Of a stretch of DNA of 46,301 nucleotides, positions 1-12,493 are shown in pieces. Source of the stretch: a virus; IMG/VR virus record IMGVR_UViG_3300027608_000054, positions 1 to 46,301 of that record. The stretch is one strand, 5' to 3'. The notes below the pieces were generated by a model, which was not told the origin of the DNA, searched no databases, and was given only the letters and a program-made list of their open reading frames with translations. Position 1 is the stretch's first letter. Each line of letters begins with the position of its first letter. The position numbers and the translations under genes were made by a program.

Positions 1-1258
1 ACGATAAGTAGTCTCCAATATATGTGTAACATTCCCCTGAAACAGTCCTTAATATACCCCCAACAGTAACGTTTGATGGTGGGTATGAGTATTGTATTAT
101 CATTGATGTATTTGTACAAGAAGTAAACACGAATACCGTATTTGTTGGATACGTTTGTGTTGGTACCGGAGTTGCGGTAGGTGTCGGTGTAGGTGTCGGT
201 GTAGGTGTTGCGGTTGGTGTAGGTGTCGGAGCAACACAAGAGCTACATCCACTTGTGATTATACTGATCACTCCTTGTAAATAATCGGCCGGACTACCAA
301 AAGTGTTTTCAGTATATGTTAAACATTTATATTGGTCATTAATTAATGCTAAGATAGTTGTTCCTGTGGTGATTGGTGATCCTGTATATAAAATAGGTCC
401 CGAAACAAAATATATATCACTACTATTACAATCCACTAATTTGTTCACATTAACACAAACAAAATTACCACTATCAATAACAAACGTCACACCAGAAGTA
501 ATGTTGTATGGGTATACCACAGGAGTCGGTGTAGGTGTAGGTGTCGGTGTAGGAGTTGGTGTTACCGCAGAAAACGATATATCAACTGTAAACCCAGAAC
601 AAATATTAGGGGTTGCGGTCGGTGTAGGGGTTGGGGTGGGTGTCGGTGTAGGTGTTGGAGTTGCGGTCGGTGTAGGGAACGCACATTCCAATACAATATC
701 AAAATCTAATATAGAACACGGATCATATGGTGTTGGTGTTGGGAAACACGTACCACTATATGATACGGTTTCATCAATATCAGGACAAATTACGGTTGTA
801 GGTTCTGCACCATAAAAAATACACGAGGAACTAAACCCTGAAGATAAACACCATTTTGATGAATCAAAAAATAAATAACCCGGTGTAGTCCCTCCTGTCC
901 AAAAAGGGAAACCATTATAGTTACCGGAAACTTGGTAGGTACCAGAAATCCCCGAATATTCGTCAATCGGTATACTAATGCAAGATATGTTATAACAACA
1001 ATCACCCGTAGCACATAAAGTATCCGAACAGTCCGTCTGTAAGGTATATACTCCGGTTAATTGTGTAAATGTGGTTGAACTAAAACCGGATGTAAAAGCA
1101 GATACGATTGTGTAACACCCTTCAGGAACAATAGGGTCTCCTGAAAAATGATATGTAAGACCTGTAGTTGCGGTACCACCGGTAGCAATCCAAGCCGCCT
1201 CATCAGTAACATATTGATAACCATCATAACAACACCCCTCAAATTTTAAATCTGCCAT
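1..1258 (-). CDS. Cys-rich tail adhesin with Pro-Thr linkers (3' end cut by the window edge)
   Basis: The reading frame opens with ATG at 1258 and stays open to position 2, giving 419 codons, so the C-terminus lies outside the window. The N-terminal 170 residues are rich in Cys, Gly, Ser, Thr and aromatic residues (for example GCCYDGYQY, GDCCYNISC and SSKWCLSSG). Four Pro-Thr stretches follow, near residues 172-178, 196-216, 233-246 and 342-364, separating small Cys-containing domains. This linker/domain layout resembles the 918-aa SprB-repeat protein at 6735-9491. It is the last gene visible after two glycosyltransferase-like genes and has its own 56-nt leader. I infer a tail fibre or virion-surface adhesin. 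No catalytic motif or signal peptide is visible, and the exact role is unknown. Confidence 0.75.
   Translation of the reverse strand, partial: MADLKFEGCCYDGYQYVTDEAAWIATGGTATTGLTYHFSGDPIVPEGCYTIVSAFTSGFSSTTFTQLTGVYTLQTDCSDTLCATGDCCYNISCISIPIDEYSGISGTYQVSGNYNGFPFWTGGTTPGYLFFDSSKWCLSSGFSSSCIFYGAEPTTVICPDIDETVSYSGTCFPTPTPYDPCSILDFDIVLECAFPTPTATPTPTPTPTPTPTPTATPNICSGFTVDISFSAVTPTPTPTPTPTPTPVVYPYNITSGVTFVIDSGNFVCVNVNKLVDCNSSDIYFVSGPILYTGSPITTGTTILALINDQYKCLTYTENTFGSPADYLQGVISIITSGCSSCVAPTPTPTATPTPTPTPTPTATPVPTQTYPTNTVFVFTSCTNTSMIIQYSYPPSNVTVGGILRTVSGECYTYIGDYLS
163..232 (-). repeat. Pro-Thr codon repeat tract 3 in the left-edge adhesin gene
   Basis: Third and longest PT tract of the gene, including two TATP variants; it precedes the domain cut by the window edge. 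Confidence 0.9.
522..563 (-). repeat. Pro-Thr codon repeat tract 2 in the left-edge adhesin gene
   Basis: Same hexamer type as the tract at 612-676; encodes about 14 alternating Pro/Thr residues between two Cys-containing domains. Confidence 0.9.
612..676 (-). repeat. Pro-Thr codon repeat tract 1 in the left-edge adhesin gene
   Basis: Tandem GGTGTN hexamers on the plus strand encode a PTPTATP-like linker on the minus strand. Confidence 0.9.
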
Positions 1259-1259
1259 T

Positions 1260-1273
1260 AAAGTTTAAACTTT
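1260..1273. promoter_or_regulatory. Perfect 14-bp palindrome next to a start codon
   Basis: AAAGTTTAAACTTT is its own reverse complement and ends one base before the ATG at 1258. It could be an operator or an RNA hairpin covering the start, but A/T-only palindromes are frequent in such DNA. Confidence 0.3.
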
Positions 1274-1314
1274 ATAATATAAATAATCAAAAGTTTATTT
1301 TATTGTAGGTTAAC

Positions 1315-2106
1315 TTAACCAAATATGTCAAAATATTGTCTCCAATCCGATTTAACTATGTTATATTCGTCTTTGTTATCTAAATAACAAAAATCTAAAT
1401 ACTTTTCTTCGCTACCGACATACCCATTTTTTAGGTGTTCGGAAACTAACGTATTAAAATTTTCTATTAATTTATTGATTTTTTTATTGTTTGGGACAAA
1501 GAAACAACCTCCGTGAATGTACCTAAACTGTGAAAATAGGTGAAATGGTCTATCATTTATTGAGAATTCTTCGTGGTGACTAAAAAATGTTATTTGTTTA
1601 TCATACCCATCATTAATCTTATTTAAGTCGGGAAACCCTTTCTTAATTAATGGCTCTCCGTCTCTTAAAACACCGGCATCACACCAAATAAACATATCAG
1701 AATTAAAATGGTCCTCACTTATTGATCGTTTAATAAAGTACAATTTGTTAAAAATAATAATGTTATAAAGGGGTTCTGTCATTTCAGGAACATTAAAATG
1801 TTTTTTCTTTTTAAAGTCCTCATCCTCCATTAACGTTTTTACCTCATCGTAAAACATTTGATACGAATTTAAATTATCTAAAGTGTCAATAATAACTATG
1901 GTTTTTTCTAAGTTCGGGTCAATTTGTTTTCTTTGGTCTATTACAAAATCTTTAAATTTTTCTTCAGTGTATATAACCATATTTGTGTCAAAATATAGTA
2001 AATTCCTCATCCACATCATATATGTATGGTAAGACAATCCATAGTTATCCCATTTATCTCTACCTATATCAAAAAGTGCGGTTACAATTGTTGGGTTTGT
2101 TATCAT
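1315..2106 (-). CDS. HtrL/YibB-like putative glycosyltransferase
   Basis: The 263-aa product resembles the HtrL_YibB family. It opens with TIVTALFDIGRDKW, has a NMVIYTEE segment near residue 42 and has the family-like FIWCDAGV at about 139-146, where Asp143 is a plausible metal or sugar-nucleotide ligand. I chose the ATG at 2106 because it forms an ATGA overlap with the stop of the preceding gene; the frame is open further upstream but only inside that gene. HtrL/YibB-type proteins are generally found in surface-glycan loci and are thought to be glycosyltransferases; the substrate is not established. Coupling to the GT60-like gene just upstream suggests the two act on the same glycan or protein. 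There is no signal peptide or membrane segment, so it is probably cytoplasmic. Confidence 0.72.
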   Translation of the reverse strand: MITNPTIVTALFDIGRDKWDNYGLSYHTYMMWMRNLLYFDTNMVIYTEEKFKDFVIDQRKQIDPNLEKTIVIIDTLDNLNSYQMFYDEVKTLMEDEDFKKKKHFNVPEMTEPLYNIIIFNKLYFIKRSISEDHFNSDMFIWCDAGVLRDGEPLIKKGFPDLNKINDGYDKQITFFSHHEEFSINDRPFHLFSQFRYIHGGCFFVPNNKKINKLIENFNTLVSEHLKNGYVGSEEKYLDFCYLDNKDEYNIVKSDWRQYFDIFG

Positions 2107-3341
2107 ATCGTTCCCGTTATTTTTTCTAACCATTCTTTTGTTTTTGAGTGGGGCCAAACCGTCCATCCTTTTGGTTTTGAATAGGTTAAAAATTCTCTTT
2201 TTATTGTTATTTCATCTTTAGACAGTAAAAATGGTATCTCGTTTTCTGTTGCGTCTTTTCGGTATAATTCTTGATTATTTTCATCGTGAAAGATTACCGC
2301 CCAAAAATCGTAATCATTTTCAGTAAAGTTATTTTTATTCAATTTTATTTCATAACTAAAGGTGGTTGAGAAACTGTTTTCCCACTCATTATCATCAATT
2401 ATTTCAGGATTAGGTGGGTATTGTTTTTTTAATGTATATTCTTGTACTGACCTTTTTTCAAAATATAATCCAGAATACTTTTCATAATCCCTTAACGTTC
2501 TTTCTTTTCCTAAACCGTATTTACCTTCGTGACCTTCTTGTTTTTCTCCATCCATACCAAACAGTTTCCTATTTAATAAATGTGAGTTTTCATTTTTAAT
2601 ATACCATTCCTTATCGTCATCCCATTGTTTGGTTCTTCCTTCTCTTGTATATTCATGCCATATTACCACTTTGTGGGGATGAAATAGATCGTATCCGTGA
2701 GTAAACGATCTCACTGTTACTGAAATCTCTTCTCCGTGAAAATAAAATTCAGGATTGTGTTGTACTTCTTTTGAGAACTGACCTAACGTAAAACAAAAAT
2801 GTGCCGAGTAAAATCTAGCAGGTACAGGTATTGTTATGTCTTGCCAATTTGGTATTGTTTCAGGTAAAAAGAAAACTGCACCTTCGGGTATAAACTTATC
2901 AAACACCATTCTCCAAGGTACGTTAACCCGACCTTCAGGGTATGTTTTTGGGTCATAAGAAGAGACATAACCAGTTAATAATGGTTTTGGTACGCCAACC
3001 TCTTGTAGTTGTTTAATCATCCCAATTAAGGTCTCATCCCATTCTTTTTCAAATCTCATATGTGAGTCTATTTGGAGGGTATAGTCTTCTTCGTTATATA
3101 GTTGTTGTACTTGGTTTCTTGCCCAACAAACACCTAAAGCTTCTTGATATGGAATGTTTAAAATTCTAAACCTATCGTCCATTTCATATTCGGTCAGGTC
3201 GTCAAATTTATCTTCGGGGTGGTATTGTCTGCAAATACCAAAAACTAAATTTTCCGGATGTTTTGCATTTTCTATACAGGATTTGATGGTAGGTATTAAT
3301 TCGGGATCTCTGTATGATGCTATTTGCACAAATATTTTCAT
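2103..3341 (-). CDS. GT60-like (Skp1-type) polypeptide GlcNAc-transferase homologue
   Basis: The 412-aa product matches the GlcNAc-transferase family typified by Skp1 hydroxyproline GlcNAc-transferase (CAZy GT60). The N-terminus IFVQIASYRDPEL and the following FGICRQY segment are family-like. IDSHMRF at 91-97 supplies a DxH metal-binding motif (Asp92, His94). FHGEEISVTVRSF at 201-213 and the VVIWH.Y segment ending near 231 look like the acceptor and catalytic region. About 100 extra residues (310-412) form a beta-rich C-terminal region I cannot assign. Characterised GT60 members transfer GlcNAc to hydroxyproline or threonine on proteins. The gene lies between PT-rich adhesin genes and is translationally coupled to a second glycosyltransferase-like gene. 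Modification of virion proteins is my inference; host glycan modification is the alternative. Confidence 0.8.
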   Translation of the reverse strand: MKIFVQIASYRDPELIPTIKSCIENAKHPENLVFGICRQYHPEDKFDDLTEYEMDDRFRILNIPYQEALGVCWARNQVQQLYNEEDYTLQIDSHMRFEKEWDETLIGMIKQLQEVGVPKPLLTGYVSSYDPKTYPEGRVNVPWRMVFDKFIPEGAVFFLPETIPNWQDITIPVPARFYSAHFCFTLGQFSKEVQHNPEFYFHGEEISVTVRSFTHGYDLFHPHKVVIWHEYTREGRTKQWDDDKEWYIKNENSHLLNRKLFGMDGEKQEGHEGKYGLGKERTLRDYEKYSGLYFEKRSVQEYTLKKQYPPNPEIIDDNEWENSFSTTFSYEIKLNKNNFTENDYDFWAVIFHDENNQELYRKDATENEIPFLLSKDEITIKREFLTYSKPKGWTVWPHSKTKEWLEKITGTI

Positions 3342-3366
3342 ATAGAAATGTTATGAAAATATATTA

Positions 3367-3588
3367 TTAAATGAAGTCTATTGTAGTTCTTGTTCTATTT
3401 CCTCCACTAAATAATAGTATTTCATTTTCATTCAAAGGGTAGTAATACGTTATTTTTAATTCATCAATCTTATCGAAACATTCATCTTGTGTGTTTGCAT
3501 TAAAAATCTGATGTGGCGTTGCGGTTATTCCATTTGTTTCTAACAAATCAATAACCTCTGTATTTGTGTATATTAATCTCCAAATCAT
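3367..3588 (-). CDS. Small unknown protein, 73 aa
   Basis: I do not recognise this protein. The ATG at 3588 shares its A with the TAA stop of the LRR gene (TAATG), the coupling used repeatedly in this genome. A longer frame beginning with TTG at 3609 lies inside the LRR gene and has no ribosome-binding site, so I reject it. The product begins MIWRLIYTN and contains one Cys, with a mixed helix/strand look and the end FSGGNRTRTTIDFI. It sits between the receptor-binding-type LRR gene and the glycosyltransferases. It could be a small chaperone or decoration protein for the LRR fibre, but nothing in the sequence shows this. Confidence 0.6.
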   Translation of the reverse strand: MIWRLIYTNTEVIDLLETNGITATPHQIFNANTQDECFDKIDELKITYYYPLNENEILLFSGGNRTRTTIDFI

Positions 3589-5309
3589 TATGTGTGTGTT
3601 ATTGTCCAATTATAAGGAGAACCCGTTAAAAATGATATTGCGGATAATCCATTGTAACCGCCACTACTACTATCGGGCGCTCCGTTTGTTCCACTTATAT
3701 TTAAATTTATATTTGACCATCCCGTCTGGTTATATGTTGCATTTCCACTAAAGTCAACTAATATGTGATTTACGTCGGTAGTTGACATATTGTTACTTTG
3801 TAAATCTATCCCCGCACGTCCTTCTGTAGTTCCAGATACTAAAGTAGCACCTGATAAAGTAGTAAAGTCTATGTAATCTAAATTACAACTGTATAGACTA
3901 AATGCCCTATTACCTTGACCATTATTTTCGTTTTTAAAATATTGTGTAGATGTTGGTAACAATATATTTGTTAAACTACTGTTTCCATCAAGTCTTAAAT
4001 ATGATGTTGATCCGGTTGTTGCTGATCCTAATTTTGTTAGATTTCTTAAATCTAAGGTTCCTGTTAAGTCACAGTCGTTTGAACGATATAATGTAAAATT
4101 ATTTAACGAAACTGAGTGGGTTATTCCTGTTAAAAAAGGATTACTATTAACCCTAAAATCACCTCCCAAACCAGATAAAGGTGTCAAATCTAAATTTCCT
4201 GTTAGATTACAAGAATTTGCTTGATAGTTCGTAAAAGTACGAGTTGATACTGAATGTGTTACACTAGTTAAACCACTATTACTAAAAACCCTAAAGTCAC
4301 CACCTAATCCAGATAGTGGCGTTAAATCTAAATTACCAGTTAAGTTACAATTGTTTGCGTAATATAATGTAAAATTATTCGGAGAAGGTGAATGTGTGAT
4401 ACCCGTTAAATTTATGTTGGATTGAACTAGAAACTGACCACCAAGTCCAGATAAAGGCGTTAAATCTAAATTACCAGTTAAGTTACAATTGTTTGCGTAA
4501 TATAATGTAAAATTATTCGGAGAAGGTGAATGTGTGATACCCGTTAGATAGGGGTTTAACTGAACTCTAAAATCACTACCCAAACCAGACAATGGGGTTA
4601 AATCTAAATTTCCGGTTAGGTTACAAACAAACGCAAGATAATTTGTTATACTATTTGATGATGGTGAATGTGTTATTCCTGTTAAATTGGGGTTTGAATA
4701 AACTTGAAAACTGCCCGATAATCCTGTGGATGGTAAGTTTAAATTTCCTATTAGACCACAAGAATGTGCTGTATACCCATTAATAATTCTTGATGTTACG
4801 TTATGTGTTATACTAGTCAATAATGGATTACTATTTACTGTAAATGAATTAATATCACCACTAATCGGTGTCATATCTAGGTTACCAATAAGCCCACAAT
4901 TAGGTACCTGATAATTACTAAACGTAGTTGTGACATTTGGGTTTGTAACACCAGTTAGTCTTGGGTTCGTATTTAAAAAAATTGACGAATTATTAGTAAA
5001 ACTTTTAAGAGGTCTTAAATCCATATGACCAAATAGATTGTCGTCTTGCAAGTTAAAATTATTCGTGTTTGTAAAACTATTACCTTTCATTTGAATTGTT
5101 CTAATTCCTGTGTCTGAAGTAAACCCTGTATATGTTATTGAATTTCCTGCTGTTTGTGTTGTTTCAGAACCATTATCTAATTTCCAAGAAACACGTCTTG
5201 ACCCACTACTAAACGTAACTGCAGGGTCAAAAGATGCCGTTGATCCGCTCTTTTGAAAAGTTAGTATTTGTCCCCTATCATTCCTTGATGTAAATTGTTG
5301 TCTACTCAT
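3588..5309 (-). CDS. Leucine-rich-repeat tail protein, probable receptor-binding fibre
   Basis: This 573-aa protein has an N-terminal beta-rich segment (about 1-90) containing VSWKLDNGSETTQT and TIQMKGNSF. An array of degenerate leucine-rich repeats follows, to about residue 450. The unit is about 46 aa and made of two half-units, one LTGITHSPS.NNFTLYYANNCN-like and one LTGNLDLTPLSGLGG-like. Two adjacent units are identical over 88 bp at DNA level. The C-terminal 120 residues are a separate Gly/Ser/Asn-rich domain. LRR arrays of this kind occur in surface proteins of Bacteroidota and bind proteins or glycans. Position after other fibre-like genes and before the glycosyltransferases supports a tail-tip or fibre role. 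No signal peptide is present, consistent with a virion protein rather than an exported one. Confidence 0.75.
   Translation of the reverse strand: MSRQQFTSRNDRGQILTFQKSGSTASFDPAVTFSSGSRRVSWKLDNGSETTQTAGNSITYTGFTSDTGIRTIQMKGNSFTNTNNFNLQDDNLFGHMDLRPLKSFTNNSSIFLNTNPRLTGVTNPNVTTTFSNYQVPNCGLIGNLDMTPISGDINSFTVNSNPLLTSITHNVTSRIINGYTAHSCGLIGNLNLPSTGLSGSFQVYSNPNLTGITHSPSSNSITNYLAFVCNLTGNLDLTPLSGLGSDFRVQLNPYLTGITHSPSPNNFTLYYANNCNLTGNLDLTPLSGLGGQFLVQSNINLTGITHSPSPNNFTLYYANNCNLTGNLDLTPLSGLGGDFRVFSNSGLTSVTHSVSTRTFTNYQANSCNLTGNLDLTPLSGLGGDFRVNSNPFLTGITHSVSLNNFTLYRSNDCDLTGTLDLRNLTKLGSATTGSTSYLRLDGNSSLTNILLPTSTQYFKNENNGQGNRAFSLYSCNLDYIDFTTLSGATLVSGTTEGRAGIDLQSNNMSTTDVNHILVDFSGNATYNQTGWSNINLNISGTNGAPDSSSGGYNGLSAISFLTGSPYNWTITHT
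4321..4546 (-). repeat. 88-bp perfect direct repeat, 138-bp period, inside the LRR gene
   Basis: Positions 4321-4408 and 4459-4546 are identical. The offset is 138 bp, exactly 46 codons, so loss or gain of a unit keeps the frame. Flanking units are diverged copies. Confidence 0.9.
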
Positions 5310-5319
5310 ATATTAATTT

Positions 5320-6117
5320 TTAGGTATAATCATTTCCAACAGTCCAATACATTACTGTACCATTATATGTGAATGTTAATATATCCGTAGCGCTTGCGTT
5401 GGATGTCAATATCACTACACCTCCACCTCCGTTCGCCACTCTATGTGTCGTACTGAGTCCGTTTACCGTTCCTAATGTTAATGTTCTACTTCCAACACCA
5501 TCTTGTTTTATTATGATTGTACCATAATCACCATTTGTAACACCCGTAAGGTTTAATGTAGTCGTGGCGGTTAATGTTGCTTCATAATTAGTACTTTGAC
5601 CTGAAACATCCCACGTTATTGTTGATCCACTACCTGAATTATAGTAAGGGTCGATTGATGACCCACCAGTAACTCCCGTTACCGCAATTGTGAAGTTTCC
5701 ATTATTTCCTGTAATACTAATATTCGATCCTGCAGTTAATCCACTCACTGGTAAATTTAGATATGTTGTTGCTGATATTGTTGTTGCAGTTAATCCTTGT
5801 GTAAATACAGTGTTTCCCGTTACCGTCCCCCCACTTAACGCTAAATAATAACTACCGTCGGTTAAACCCGTTACCGTAAATGTTCCTCCCGTACTGTTAG
5901 TGAAAATTGCGTTACCATTACTGTAAGTTCCACCTGTAACGAACGTGTCAGTATTACCACTAAATATCGAACTTAATTGTTGTAACTCAGCCTTATATGA
6001 TGATCCGTAAATACTTTGTGACGTATCTGCAGTTGTTACGATATGTATAAGAGTCGTCGGCGTTATTGCCGATGATTGGGCTAAAGACCTGTCCGTTAAT
6101 AATTGATATGTTGGCAT
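5320..6117 (-). CDS. Putative tail fibre/structural protein, Gly-Thr-rich
   Basis: The 265-aa product is rich in Gly, Thr, Ser and Asn. A short N-terminal helical head (about 1-55, including AELQQLSSIF) precedes repeated GTFTVTGLTDGSYYL- and SATTYLNLPVSGL-like strands. The C-terminal 100 residues (NLTGVTNGDYGTIIIKQDG through YWTVGNDYT) look like a compact beta-sandwich tip. This composition is typical of phage fibre or tail-tip proteins, and the neighbours are fibre-like genes on both sides. I cannot name the family. A 21-nt gap separates it from the preceding 95-aa gene, and 10 nt separate its stop from the LRR gene. Confidence 0.6.
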   Translation of the reverse strand: MPTYQLLTDRSLAQSSAITPTTLIHIVTTADTSQSIYGSSYKAELQQLSSIFSGNTDTFVTGGTYSNGNAIFTNSTGGTFTVTGLTDGSYYLALSGGTVTGNTVFTQGLTATTISATTYLNLPVSGLTAGSNISITGNNGNFTIAVTGVTGGSSIDPYYNSGSGSTITWDVSGQSTNYEATLTATTTLNLTGVTNGDYGTIIIKQDGVGSRTLTLGTVNGLSTTHRVANGGGGVVILTSNASATDILTFTYNGTVMYWTVGNDYT

Positions 6118-6138
6118 AGTTTATTTAATAAATATTAT

Positions 6139-6426
6139 TTATTGGAAAATATAACCGAACCCGTCCATAAAATTAAAGTATATATCATTTTGGAACGCCT
6201 TTTGACCTGCGCAATCAATAACTGTTGAATAGATGCAACCATTTGTATCTACAATTCTTAAATAAAGGTAATTTTCGTTTGGAAAATAACTTTCCGTATT
6301 AATAACAACGGTTGCAGGTATAGACGTTAGTCCTGATATATAGAAACAAGCCACGTTTGTTGGGTCACATAAAAAAACATCATACGGCTCAAATCCACCA
6401 GTATCTCCTGTTATTTGTATTATCAT
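6139..6426 (-). CDS. Cys-rich 95-aa protein, paralogue A
   Basis: This is a small beta-rich protein with four Cys (20, 27, 64, 72) arranged C-x6-C and C-x7-C. Its pattern ITGDTGGFEPYDVFLCD ... VDTNGCIY ... IDC parallels that of the next gene upstream (6444-6731), so the two are tandem duplicates. The VDTNGC segment resembles the end of an SprB repeat, so it may be a free-standing relative of those domains. Probable virion-surface or fibre-associated component; function unknown. Confidence 0.65.
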   Translation of the reverse strand: MIIQITGDTGGFEPYDVFLCDPTNVACFYISGLTSIPATVVINTESYFPNENYLYLRIVDTNGCIYSTVIDCAGQKAFQNDIYFNFMDGFGYIFQ

Positions 6427-6443
6427 AATAATAAATACCTTTG

Positions 6444-6731
6444 TTATTCAAAAACCAAAGTATCCCCACCTTCCGTAGTTAAGAAATCACCTAATTCTGT
6501 TAATATTATGTACGTTTCAACATCACAAGATATTAATTTAAAAAAGATACAACCCGTATTATCGACCGATTTTACCATAATGGTTGTTGCGGTTTGTAAC
6601 AGTGTAGGCAACACATACACACCAGGACTATAACCTAAAAATGCGCAGTTATTACCGTATTCATCACAAGCATACAGACTAACAGGTGCTGTCCCTCCTG
6701 ATAAATTGGTTATGTCTATTGAGTATGGCAT
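6444..6731 (-). CDS. Cys-rich 95-aa protein, paralogue B
   Basis: Same length and layout as the gene at 6139-6426. ITNLSGGTAPVSLYACD aligns with ITGDTGGFEPYDVFLCD, and VDNTGCIFFKLISCD aligns with VDTNGCIYSTVIDC. Cys 22, 29, 61 and 69 keep the C-x6-C / C-x7-C spacing. The C-terminal tails after the last Cys differ. It starts 3 nt after the stop of the SprB-repeat gene and is clearly in the same operon. Function unknown; a small structural or adhesin accessory is the best guess. Confidence 0.65.
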   Translation of the reverse strand: MPYSIDITNLSGGTAPVSLYACDEYGNNCAFLGYSPGVYVLPTLLQTATTIMVKSVDNTGCIFFKLISCDVETYIILTELGDFLTTEGGDTLVFE

Positions 6732-6734
6732 TTT

Positions 6735-9491
6735 TTAACAAGTTTGTAAAAATATGATAGATCCACCAGTTTGTACGGTTACTTTTTGCCTGAAACTTAT
6801 AAAGTTAGAAGACTTAATCGCTTTTTGACATAATATTCCACCACCCCCTCCACAGGACGTTGATGGTGAGACTGTCGTAGTTAAAGAAGGGTTAGTGTAA
6901 AGTACGGTCCCCAAACTTAGTGTTGGTGTTGATGTATAAAGGATTAACGAACCGATTGGATCAGAGCACGTTTGTGGTGCACTGAGAACGTAATAATTAT
7001 TATTCGATAACCAAGTATAGTAAACAGGGGTAGGCGTCGGGGTAGGCGTCGGGGTTGGACTAGGTGTTGGTGTCGCGGTTGGTGTTGGTGTTGGTCCAGG
7101 AGTTGCGGTTGGTGTCGGGCTAGGTGTTGGTGTTGGTGTCGCGGTTGGTGTCGGGCTAGGTGTTGGTGTTGGTAAAATGTTTTGACAAGAAATATTGTAA
7201 TCAATATTTAAAGATAAACTAAAATTGGCGTTTCCTAACGGATCGACCCCTCCCACACAATTTGATTGTATTTGTAGGGTATTATTTAATAAATTCACAC
7301 TATACTCCCCGACTTGTGGGATTGAAGAAAGTATATTTTCTATTGCTTGTTGCCATCCACCATCGTTTTCAACTAAAACCGTTTGAGTAAAGGCACTTCC
7401 ATTCAAATTAATTTCACATTCTAATATGTAATAATTAATAAAACAATTTGTATATCCAGAGGTTAAATCCAAAAACCCTTCTGAAACCATTTCAGAAATA
7501 CCTCTTTTTGTTCCCGAAGTTGTTGTAAAACTATTTGAACAGATATTATATCTAGTAACCCCAGTTACGGTTGTAAAAGTACAATCGATTTGGAACGATT
7601 GGTAATTTGTACATCCCGAAGCATCAACAACGGTAACAGTATATGAACCACCTGACAATCCTGAAACTGTGCTACCTGTTTGAGATAATGGGACATTATT
7701 TGACCAATTATATGTAAATGGTGGTGTTCCATCAAATATACTAACACTCGCAGAACCATCATTACCAAAAATACAATTATTAGTAAATACGGCACTGTCT
7801 AACTGTGCGGTGGTAGTTATGTTAAAAGTTTCAGAAACAACACAATCATTTTCATCTCTAACATCTAACGTATATTGACCTGCAGTTAAGTTAGTAAACG
7901 TCACTGAACTTAATGCGGTATTAATAATCGGTGGTTTCCCTGTTAAAAAATAATCTAATTGTCCTCCAACAGGCCAATTAGTATATCCCGTACCAACGTT
8001 AACCGTAAAACTACCATTACTTAATCCACAAGTTGCTCCTGTAGTTATAACATCAACAGTAAATTTCTCAACGGAATTAACAGATAATGTTTGACTATAA
8101 CCACAACCAGCACTTTCACCCGATATTGTTAAAAGGTAAGTGTCGTTTGGTAAATTAGGGAACGTAACGTTTTGACTTTGGGTATAAAAAGTATAATTCT
8201 GATTTGTTGTTAAACCTGATAAATCATATAAATAAAACCCAACAAGTCCGCTGATGTATGTTGTTATTGATCCGCTATTTTGGTTACAAACTGAGTTTGT
8301 TATTGTATTACCAATAACATTAAACCCTGATATTGTATTTAAGGCCGTTGTAACATAATAAGGACAATAGTTTGCATCTCTAACTAAAATGGTATATGAT
8401 GCCGAAGGTAAGGAATTTAGTGTGAATGTGTTCGATAAGGTGTATCCGACCTCACCTGTATTTGCCGAATAAAAATAAGGTAACGTACCTCCTGACATTG
8501 TTATTGATAATGCCCCGTCAGACGCAAAACAAGTTGGTGCCGTAGGTACAATTGATAATACCCCTATTGGCTCCGCAATTCCTACAGTTGTTGATTGGGT
8601 AACCGAACACCCATAAAAATCGGTCACCACCACTGAATAATTTCCAGCAGTTAATCCGGTTGCTAATTGTGTTGTTTGTCCGTCTGACCATAAATAGGTG
8701 TACGGTCCTGTTCCTGTTATCCCCGTTACTGCGATTTTACCTGTATTAATTACACAAGTACCCGCATTAACAACCCATAACCCATAACTAATGTTTGTGC
8801 TTCCAGTTATTAAAGTGTTCTCCGTTTTAGCGGTTCCCAATCCATAATCATACACAACTGTATGATATGTTGATGCTGGTAACCCCGCAATTTGATAAGG
8901 GAATTGGAGTACTGAATCTGTCCTAACATAATCAGAGACACCACTATATATAACAACATTATATGGTGAGTTTACTGATGTTGCACTAACATAAAACGTC
9001 CCATTGTCTTGACCACAACTAGTCCCTTCGGTCCCATAAATATTAGCAGTAAAACAGTTAGAAACTAAAACATTTATAAAGATTTCGTTGTTAAACTCCC
9101 CTAACGTATCGTTCAATCTAAATACGTAGGTCCCACCTGTAAGGCCAGTAAACGTTATTTCTGAGGAGTTAGTTTGGGCACTCAGTCCACTACCTGCCGG
9201 AGTAATAGGGTCGATCGTGTATGGTGAAACTCCTCCCGTTGGTGTGAATATTATAGTCCCTGTGGGGTTACCACAGACACCTGTAACTGAAAAGGTATAA
9301 CCTAAAGGTCCTGTACTACAATCTTGAGTACAGGTACTTAACGCATCTAATATTAACCCAATTGCTGATCCAGAATATGCCGTATCAATACAAACGGAGT
9401 CTAAATTATTGGCGAACCCTGTTTGGATTACACCACAACAATCAGTATAATTATAATAACCACCACTAGTAAACCCTGTAATACAAGCCAT
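6735..9491 (-). CDS. SprB-repeat adhesin with long Pro-Thr linker
   Basis: The 918-aa product has about seven SprB-type repeats between residues 74 and 640, starting near 74, 157, 245, 320, 401, 487 and 573. A typical unit runs C...(D/N)G.I.V...GG..PY.Y.W....GL..G.Y.V.V.D..GC. A Cys-containing module follows (about 660-770), then a Pro-Thr/Ser/Ala linker (774-823) and a Cys- and Gly-rich tip to 918. SprB repeats are best known from Flavobacterium gliding-motility adhesins. The ATG at 9491 overlaps the upstream TAA (TAATG); a TTG at 9500 in the same frame is inside the previous gene and rejected. No signal peptide or type IX secretion C-terminal domain is seen, so I read it as a virion fibre rather than an exported host protein. 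Confidence 0.85.
7024..7171 (-). repeat. Pro-Thr codon repeat tract in the SprB-repeat adhesin gene
   Basis: Low-complexity DNA built from GGTGTC/GGTGTT-type hexamers (plus strand) encodes [13 protein letters not shown]-type residues. It also creates false Gly-Val frames on the opposite strand. Confidence 0.9.
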
Positions 9492-12400
9492 TAACCACAA
9501 TTAATTTGTAAATCTAAACCAATATATAGATTTAGTTGTTTATTTGTAAAGTTGTCATAACAACTAGAATTACTAATCGTTAAAACCCCACCAGAAAAAT
9601 AATAGTTTAATCCGTATTGATATAAATACTGTAATTTACTATCAATCGCATTTATCACATCATAATACGATAAAGGTAATCCGGTGGTTAAATCTATTGC
9701 ACTTTGTCCATATCCAACATAAAAAGGGTCAGATATTAAAGTGTCCTCAATATTTGTTACTGTATCTGTCAGTGTTAAATCAACATACCACGTCGACACC
9801 ATTGTTGTCGAGTCACAGTCAATACTTGTAAACCCACTACTCGTATATAGCTCATTTATTTTTGTATTTAAAACCGCGACCGGATCAAATGTTGGTAGAC
9901 TACATTGCGTTGTTTGATCAATACAATCGTATGTGTATGGTGATCCGTCATAAATACACGGTAGACAATCAGTATTTTTAAGATCACCTAATATAAAGGT
10001 ACAACCCCTCTGTCTTCTCCATACAAATTTTTGTCGATTAAAAATCGAATTATCCATTTTTTGTCCCGTATTCCAAATTGTGGTTGCTGGAACAAATTGT
10101 TCAACAAGTCTAACCCAATAATCACCCAACCCTAAAGTGAAGTCGATCATCTTCTGATATGTAAATTTATTATTAGGTATATTTAAAACTTGATCGGTCT
10201 GTAAATATTTCCAAAATATAGATTGTAATGCCGGATACCCACCAGTCTTACCGTCTGATATTGTTTGTCTATTTCTAACATTTATTAAATTATTATAGAA
10301 AGTTTGAGCGAACTCAAAAAATGTTTTTTGATTTGGTTTTGGGTCAACAACCGTCCAATCGTTCAATCCTGGTGTTGGGTACGGCGCAGTTAAACCTGAA
10401 TTAGGTATAGGGTATCCGTATTTTACTGACATTTCCCATATGTCATACGTTATTCCTTGTCCCATATTAAGATACAATTCCATATTCTTAACATTAACAA
10501 CCTGACCACTATCTTCAATCAAATAGTTAGTTGGTGAGTTTTCATCCGTACTTTTTCTTAACCCAACCGATCCTAAATCCCAAGATTTTTTATTATCAAT
10601 GGTTTTAGTGAGTCCATAACCCAAATCCATAGATGGGAATTTATCAAATCTATCAATATAATCTTGTCCGTATGTGAATGGTTTAAGTTTCGTAATTATG
10701 ATAGATGGTGATACCGAAAAATTAGAAAGATTAAAATCAATCTCTTCGGTTGATCTATGGTCTGGTGTTGTTTCAAACCATCCCGCACCTTTTTGGAAAA
10801 AGAAAGAATCGTTATTTACTGGCGGTTCGGGATATCCCGTATCAATATTTATTGGGTAATACTCTAAACCAACTAACGTTCTATTAATGACACCTGATTT
10901 TGTAAAACCAGTATATTGAGTACCCAATATTGAAAATATATTTGTACTATCTAAAGCGGGCGTTTCAACGTATGTTGTTCCTCCAGATAATTTTGCATAT
11001 TTTTCATAAAAATCATCTACCGATATTTTTTGGTCCGCTAAATAGATGTATTCGTTAAACTCAATTAATGCGTCAGGAGCTCCAATCATTCTCATAATAT
11101 ACTCAATGGAAGATCTGGTACCTTTTGATCTAAATAAGAATCCAGAATTTAATATTAGATTTCTGTAATATTGATAGTTTAACTCCGCAGGTGTCTGTTC
11201 TTTAGATTGTCCAGGATAAATAACGTCGTTGGTCGTTGTAAAGATAGACCCTAATAACGAATCGTTAGTTATCGGTGAAATATTAGGGTCTATCCCTAAT
11301 GTTGCAGCCAAATTACCTAATAGTTGTGAGGGTATGTCGTTCTTTACAATATAGTTAACTGATGTAATGTTTGCCAAAGCGTCAATGAACTTTTTAGTCT
11401 CATCAAAACTTCTACCATAAATTTGTAATGTTTTTTCAATTTTTTGGTCTATAGTATCAAACTCTTTTAGTGATCCAGAAGTTAAAAACCGACTTATTAG
11501 GTTTGTTTTATACTCATCCAATCTTTCAGTAATATACTGTAGGTTGGTCAAATAATTATCAAAAGTATTCGTTCTAATGTCTAAATTCCAAATACCGTCA
11601 GTATTCCAAGTTAAACTTTTATTAAATAAAATATAATTACCATTACTGTCATAATCCGGATAACTAAACGTTGCGGTATATTTTGGATATGCCTTCCTAT
11701 TTAAAATATAATCCTCAACCTCATCAAAGGCATCCTGAAATATTTGTTCAGTGACTAAATTATTTGGTTTTATAATTAAGGTGTCAGTAGTGGTTGTTGA
11801 GGTAAACGGTTTACCTTTAACGGTTATCGTTAATGTTCCTCCGGTTACCGATTGTGTTGGTTCTAAATCGACAACATTAAATTCGGTATTTAAATTATTA
11901 ACATATAACGAAAATCCCTCAAAATTATTTGTTATATCCCTATATTTTGAAACAGTTATTGGTCTATTAGCTACATTAATCCTTGCGTTTACGGAAAAAT
12001 CAATGTCAAATGGATTTTTGAAAAATCTTGAATCAGTATCAAACGTAGTTTCATTGTTAATGGTATCGTAAGAAACATTATATGCCGTATTACCTGTTTG
12101 TAAAATATAATTACGGTAGTACACCTCAATACCCGCAGGAAAATAATTAATCACTCTATTAACCGAAGCGGATATTCTTTTACTTAATGATCCATATAAT
12201 GAAAAACTTGTTATTTGTGCTAAATCAAAATTAGGGTAAACTCTAAAGTTTTTTTCAATAATTTGTTTAGTTTCAGCAATACTTTCAATATTTAAATTTT
12301 CCATATTAAATGGATCCGAAAAAACACCAGTATTAAAAGTTCTACTTACCTTTTCGTAAACAGAAGACGTGAATTCAAAATTACCAAGCGTCAACCCCCC

Positions 12401-12493
12401 TCCTGAGACTAATTGTAAACCAACTAAATCATCAGAAAAAGTACCCGACCCTACAGGTGGCGGTGATGGACATATAAATTTAGTTCTTGCCAT
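9491..12493 (-). CDS. Large baseplate/tail structural protein, 1000 aa
   Basis: I cannot assign a family with confidence. Residues 1-330 look beta-rich and 330-480 more helical. The segment [20 protein letters not shown] (about 454-475) recalls the short GT..ai..l helical motif of P2 gpI-type baseplate proteins. The length is close to T4 gp7 (about 1030 aa) and the gene lies in the same baseplate block, but I see no decisive gp7 motif. The C-terminal 120 residues are Cys-rich and end [12 protein letters not shown]. They resemble a module inside the adjacent SprB-repeat protein, suggesting shared attachment architecture. TAATG overlaps couple it to the genes on both sides. Probably the baseplate component that carries the adhesins. 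Confidence 0.7.

Follow-up and report, generated by a model that had tools for sequence, protein, structure and literature searches.

The 46.3 kb virus record IMGVR_UViG_3300027608_000054, a fragment of an uncultured tailed phage that was analysed over its full 46,301 nucleotides (the window), encodes a putative polypeptide N-acetylglucosamine (GlcNAc)-transferase of glycosyltransferase (GT) family 60, GT60, and a protein of the HtrL/YibB family, HtrL, in the neighbourhood of adhesin-like proteins with proline–threonine (PT, or TP) linkers. The two enzymes probably form a phage-encoded cassette for mucin-type O-glycosylation of the phage's own adhesin linkers. This reading is supported by the domains and folds of the enzymes, the coupling of their genes, the co-occurrence and close linkage of GT60 and linkers, and a Thr periodicity that is under selection at the protein level. 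The layout is that of a mucin-type system, with dense Thr/Ser domains beside predicted initiating and extending transferases.

GT60 matched PF11397 across its catalytic region (E 1e-69, 235.9 bits against a cut-off of 21) as well as phrog_24687 (E 2.7e-158). D92-S93-H94 and H229 are among the residues that are invariant in 40 homologues, those of phages XacN1 and RAS14 included; DxH is the metal motif of GT27/GT60-type polypeptide N-acetylhexosamine (HexNAc)-transferases. The AlphaFold (AF2) model of GT60 had a confidence score (pLDDT) of 85, with lower confidence at residues about 190–260, and its top PDB matches were mostly polypeptide N-acetylgalactosamine (GalNAc)-transferases (ppGalNAc-T; GalNAc-T4, T2, T1 and T10, E 1e-8 to 1e-7), the enzymes that start mucin O-glycans. 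These fold matches reached template modelling (TM) scores of only 0.4–0.5, and other GT-A enzymes (chondroitin polymerase, TarS) were also listed. As modelled, GT60 has a GT-A fold like that of the mucin-initiating polypeptide transferases.

HtrL matched PF09612 (E 4e-26, 92.6 bits against a cut-off of 24.1), a family listed by Pfam as of unknown function. Its AF2 model (pLDDT 94) also had a GT-A fold, with XXYLT1, pneumococcal GlyE and LARGE1 as the best PDB matches, and we propose that it is a GT8-like glycosyltransferase that would extend the glycan by a second sugar. Searches of PDB sequences with the GT60 and HtrL profiles gave no match. The enzymes had been called GT60- and HtrL-like in a preliminary description of this DNA, and the predicted structures agree with it, one being ppGalNAc-T-like and the other XXYLT1/GlyE-like. 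The ATGA overlap described there between the two genes is present at their junction, which reads ...GATATGATAAC..., with the ATG and the TGA sharing two letters. The left-edge adhesin gene begins 57 bp after HtrL, and on the other side four genes (3.4 kb) separate GT60 from the 921-aa SprB adhesin (PF13573, E 3e-15, four stretches). With the domains and linkers located, the claim that PT-linker adhesin-like proteins flank GT60 also stood.

The linkers themselves carry a signature of selection. Between the left-edge gene and its 541-aa orthologue in the closest relative, L002 (L002:12084-13706), the linkers (68 codons) showed no amino-acid and 19 synonymous differences, and the remainder (351 codons) showed 37 amino-acid and 73 synonymous differences. 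All 19 differing linker codons are synonymous; the linkers are under selection as protein and are no product of neutral DNA slippage. GT60 differed between the same two contigs by 26 amino-acid and 73 synonymous changes. Across about 6600 linker residues from GT60 loci, every second residue was Thr or Ser throughout, and its partner was Pro in about half of the cases and Asn, Gln, Val, Ala, Glu or others elsewhere. Stretches with the opposite arrangement, a periodic Pro with other partners, were nearly absent from these loci. Since Thr/Ser is invariant while the partner varies, Thr, and not hydroxyproline, is the likely acceptor on the basis of the residue pattern. Of the two acceptors named in the preliminary description, threonine is thus favoured and hydroxyproline is not.

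To place the window among its relatives, we collected 287 viral contigs encoding a close GT60 relative, and the best 80 were reduced to 44 loci at 95% identity. A GT60 gene found mostly apart from PT linkers would speak against self-glycosylation; the survey gave the reverse, with Thr-periodic linker open reading frames (ORFs; every other residue Thr or Ser) within 10 kb in 40 of the 44 loci and within 3 kb in 37. All 70 linker ORFs lying within 5 kb of GT60 share its strand and, with the linkers masked, they group into 12 mutually non-homologous clusters. Three of the four linker-negative loci (L032, L053 and L055) are flanked by sequence that is short or truncated. An HtrL-family gene occurred within 10 kb in 39 of 44 loci, either as a form of about 260 aa, as in the window, or as a longer one of about 557 aa that has an additional domain at its C-terminus. 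Homologues of the SprB adhesin were present in 12–16 loci. Further enzymes recur beside GT60, namely GT25 (14 loci), GT10 (7), GT9 (5) and a methyltransferase-like gene (5), with GT34/DUF273 and FkbM domains as single examples. In relatives of the window, the cassette is larger and comprises more enzymes. One locus encodes a fusion protein that joins an FkbM methyltransferase to HtrL and ends in a domain with weak resemblance to TET-associated glycosyltransferase (TAGT; L078:6673-9042), and another GT60-carrying phage contig encodes a predicted Fe/Mn superoxide dismutase domain (L026:19693-21120). Close GT60 relatives were nearly absent from GTDB genomes, where they occurred only in three metagenome-assembled contigs (L403–L405; two Saprospiraceae and one Alphaproteobacteria), possibly misbinned phage.

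The linkage between GT60 and linkers is also close in long contigs. In ten contigs of 100–304 kb, the TP repeat nearest to GT60 lay 0.3–1.5 kb away in nine and 9 kb away in the tenth, compared to a mean of about one contig with a linker within 2.5 kb on random placement. In the reverse search, which started from TP repeats in contigs of at least 20 kb, GT60 was found in 12 of 50 contigs, within 2 kb of the repeat in 7 of them, and in none of 42 control contigs selected with the reversed pattern (Fisher p 4e-4). HtrL was present in 4 of the 12 linker contigs with GT60 and in 0 of the 38 without. Contigs with baseplate markers had linkers in 16 of 16 GT60-positive and 4 of 14 GT60-negative cases, a weak table because most GT60-negative contigs (e.g. 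G028) end before the region. Survey, fold comparison, reverse search and intragenomic distances all support the proposal that the phage glycosylates its own PT linkers, and from them we infer the link to the substrate.

Isolated phages have the same arrangement. A GT60 of 42–44% identity, with HtrL nearby, is present in Xanthomonas phage XacN1 and in the Stenotrophomonas phages RAS14 and CM1, and TP-rich proteins lie within the same 31 kb as GT60 in XacN1 and RAS14. In XacN1, ORF334 is GT60 (44% identical to that of the window) and ORF330, in the same cluster, is HtrL. XacN1 therefore resembles the window in having GT60, HtrL in the cluster and TP-rich proteins, and its virions are reported to contain at least two glycoproteins, for which phage GTs were suggested as the source (PMC5852040). 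It differs in that the cassette adds NodU-like carbamoyltransferase, GT9 and GT2-like genes (L282:16409-25189). The cluster adjoins a very large TP-linker gene, ORF325. As far as its accessible text goes, the XacN1 paper draws no connection between the GTs and TP linkers (PMC5852040).

The features of the window are collected in Table 1. The four genes between GT60 and the SprB adhesin probably encode virion-module proteins; one of them (5320-6117) has a weak match to a tail-assembly phrog, and the 573-aa protein (3588-5309) consists of repeated LTGNLDLTPLSGLGG-like units. Among phage records no match was found for the latter or for the protein at 9491-12493, and the SprB adhesin had one match only. 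The minus strand also carries gp25-like and gp6-like tail-baseplate genes and replication genes. A promoter scan of the window gave nothing above shuffle level. In a close relative (L407, G019:20001-40000), neither GT60 nor HtrL was detected; its left-edge homologue keeps the PT linkers, and its 775-aa SprB adhesin homologue aligns only up to about the start of the PT linker.

Table 1. Cassette, adhesin and linker features of the window
Feature	Position	Strand	Family
Adhesin-like protein at the left edge, three PT linkers, incomplete at the contig end	2..1258	-	
PT linker of left-edge protein, 28 aa	152..235	-	
PT linker of left-edge protein, 19 aa	515..571	-	
PT linker of left-edge protein, 24 aa	605..676	-	
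HtrL/YibB-family protein, GT-A-fold, GT8-like, proposed extender	1315..2106	-	PF09612
GT60-like polypeptide GlcNAc-transferase, 412 aa, proposed O-glycan initiator on Thr	2103..3341	-	PF11397, phrog_24687
Four co-directional genes between GT60 and SprB adhesin (573, 265, 95 and 95 aa)	3588..6731	-	
SprB-repeat adhesin-like protein, 921 aa, with C-terminal PT linker and terminal domain	6735..9491	-	PF13573
PT linker of SprB adhesin, 50 aa (residues 777-826 of the longer ORF frame)	7023..7172	-	

Several observations weigh against a cassette dedicated to the linkers. L057 (219 kb) is a true exception, having GT60 and no TP linkers. GT60 is absent from 38 of the 50 linker-bearing contigs, so a phage can have linkers in its absence, and finding PT linkers is not enough to predict GT60. 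The close relative G019 keeps linkers of the left-edge type with no GT60 detected on its 52.8 kb fragment, and the sampled linkers are far from GT60 in G066, G074 and possibly G034. The linkers of GT60-negative phages show the same Thr periodicity, which is therefore consistent with glycosylation and no proof of it. Nor is the Thr/partner pattern of GT60-negative linker contigs clearly distinct (20% non-Pro partners against 25%), and looser partner residues in GT60-positive linkers were dropped as a distinguishing feature. Relatedness between contigs inflates the p-values, making those for linkage descriptive only. The virion glycoproteins of XacN1 are not named in the accessible text of that paper (PMC5852040).

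What else could the enzymes modify? Virion proteins other than the TP linkers, either folded capsid or tail-tube termini or a Skp1-like hydroxyproline, are unlikely as the main target. Phages have been reported to carry glycans on the C-termini of capsid and tail-tube proteins (Freeman 2023, as cited in PMC12619734), the GT60 enzyme Gnt1 acts on Skp1 hydroxyproline, and L057/G130, which lacks TP linkers, has a 2-oxoglutarate (2OG)-Fe(II) oxygenase 4 kb from GT60 (G130:C1:101311-101607) and might be a hydroxyproline-type variant. Against such targets, GT60 is closely linked to many unrelated Thr-rich genes, and Thr rather than Pro is the invariant linker residue. In addition, PF13640, the only oxygenase family searched for as a Skp1-type prolyl hydroxylase partner, was absent from 13 of 16 GT60 records (the window, a fragment, and 12 others), distant from GT60 in two and near it only in G130. 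The chance is smaller still that the cassette acts on surface polysaccharide or lipopolysaccharide (LPS) of the host, for receptor masking or superinfection exclusion, and lies beside adhesins because their region is a hot spot for accessory genes. Accessory genes are indeed common in tail-adhesin regions, and LPS enzymes occur in the GT25 and GT9 families; a passage in PMC4172580 mentions HtrL for Acinetobacter lipooligosaccharide outer-core loci. However, the substrates of GT60 and ppGalNAc-T enzymes are polypeptides, the cassette genes are translationally coupled and on one strand with structural genes, and the association seen when starting from TP linkers is not expected for an LPS-directed cassette.

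Glycosylation of modified phage DNA is very improbable. Virus-encoded GTs do hypermodify DNA (Pyle 2024, as cited in PMC12619734), and the C-terminal part of the L078 fusion weakly matches TAGT; that match falls below its cut-off, the GT60 and HtrL genes sit in the adhesin module, and TET/JBP gave no match in 16 GT60 records, in a search without a working positive control. We know of no GT60 member that acts on DNA. We give equally little credence to the absence of any functional link, with PT linkers as ordinary stiff spacers and GT60 beside them by inherited synteny. The many PT-linker phages that lack GT60, and the G019 fragment, would fit this; inherited synteny is hard to reconcile with twelve non-homologous linker families, with the recurrence in unrelated Xanthomonadales jumbo phages and with the short distances in 100–304 kb contigs.

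Returning to linker glycosylation, we infer a donor sugar, a Thr acceptor, an order of addition and a biological benefit as follows. During late expression, and within the cytoplasm of the host, GT60 would transfer HexNAc, most likely alpha-GlcNAc from host uridine diphosphate (UDP)-GlcNAc, to the Thr/Ser hydroxyl groups that recur at regular spacing along the TP linkers. HtrL would then attach the next sugar, and the glycan of related phages would be elaborated by GT25, GT10, GT9, GT34 and methyltransferases. The outcome would be a stiff, protease-resistant, mucin-like stalk joining the adhesin domains, which may also change binding or shielding.

Eukaryotic initiation of mucin-type O-GlcNAc, by TcOGNT1 in T. 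cruzi and pp-alphaGlcNAcT in Dictyostelium, uses the same Pfam family as the phage GT60 and Thr-rich, mucin-like acceptors. The T. cruzi GT60 enzymes produce GlcNAc-alpha-Thr in mucins (PMC9472816), GT60 enzymes also initiate mucin-type glycans in Dictyostelium, and in both the initiator is followed by further GTs, adding galactose in T. cruzi and fucose in Dictyostelium (PMC9472816, PMC8724618). By comparison, the phage cassette presumably works in the bacterial cytoplasm, is paired with HtrL and has adhesin linkers as predicted acceptors. Bacterial serine-rich-repeat adhesins, such as that of the PsrP cluster with GlyE, likewise have a dense hydroxyl-rich stalk and, adjacent to the gene, a GT cluster dedicated to it, and the phage HtrL model resembles GlyE itself. 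Their initiator is GtfA/GtfB, whereas here it would be GT60, with a phage structural protein as cargo; neither GtfA/GtfB nor accessory Sec was among the annotated neighbours, which were not searched for them by name. In mycobacteriophages, GTs of the phage modify its own virion proteins, as proposed here, with the glycans reported on capsid and tail-tube C-termini (Freeman 2023, as cited) as opposed to GT60 beside Thr-periodic adhesin linkers. Self-glycosylation by phages is therefore already known; what looks new is a mucin-type form of it that relies on GT60 and targets adhesin linkers, and our literature searches found no report of phage tail fibres that are mucin-like or glycosylated.

A broader view, which we put forward tentatively and at slightly less than even odds, is that widespread phages build true mucin-like virion stalks, with GT60 placing alpha-HexNAc on every second linker residue, up to hundreds per genome, and modular, lineage-specific GTs, carbamoyl- and methyltransferases that diversify the glycan into a tunable, virus-encoded coat. 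If linker glycosylation is correct, bacterial viruses, too, would practise mucin-type protein O-glycosylation, best known in animals and protists, with their own adhesins as substrates. The HtrL/YibB family would gain a function, the Thr periodicity of linkers in environmental phages would have an explanation, and cytoplasmic, bacterially expressed polypeptide HexNAc-transferases would become available.

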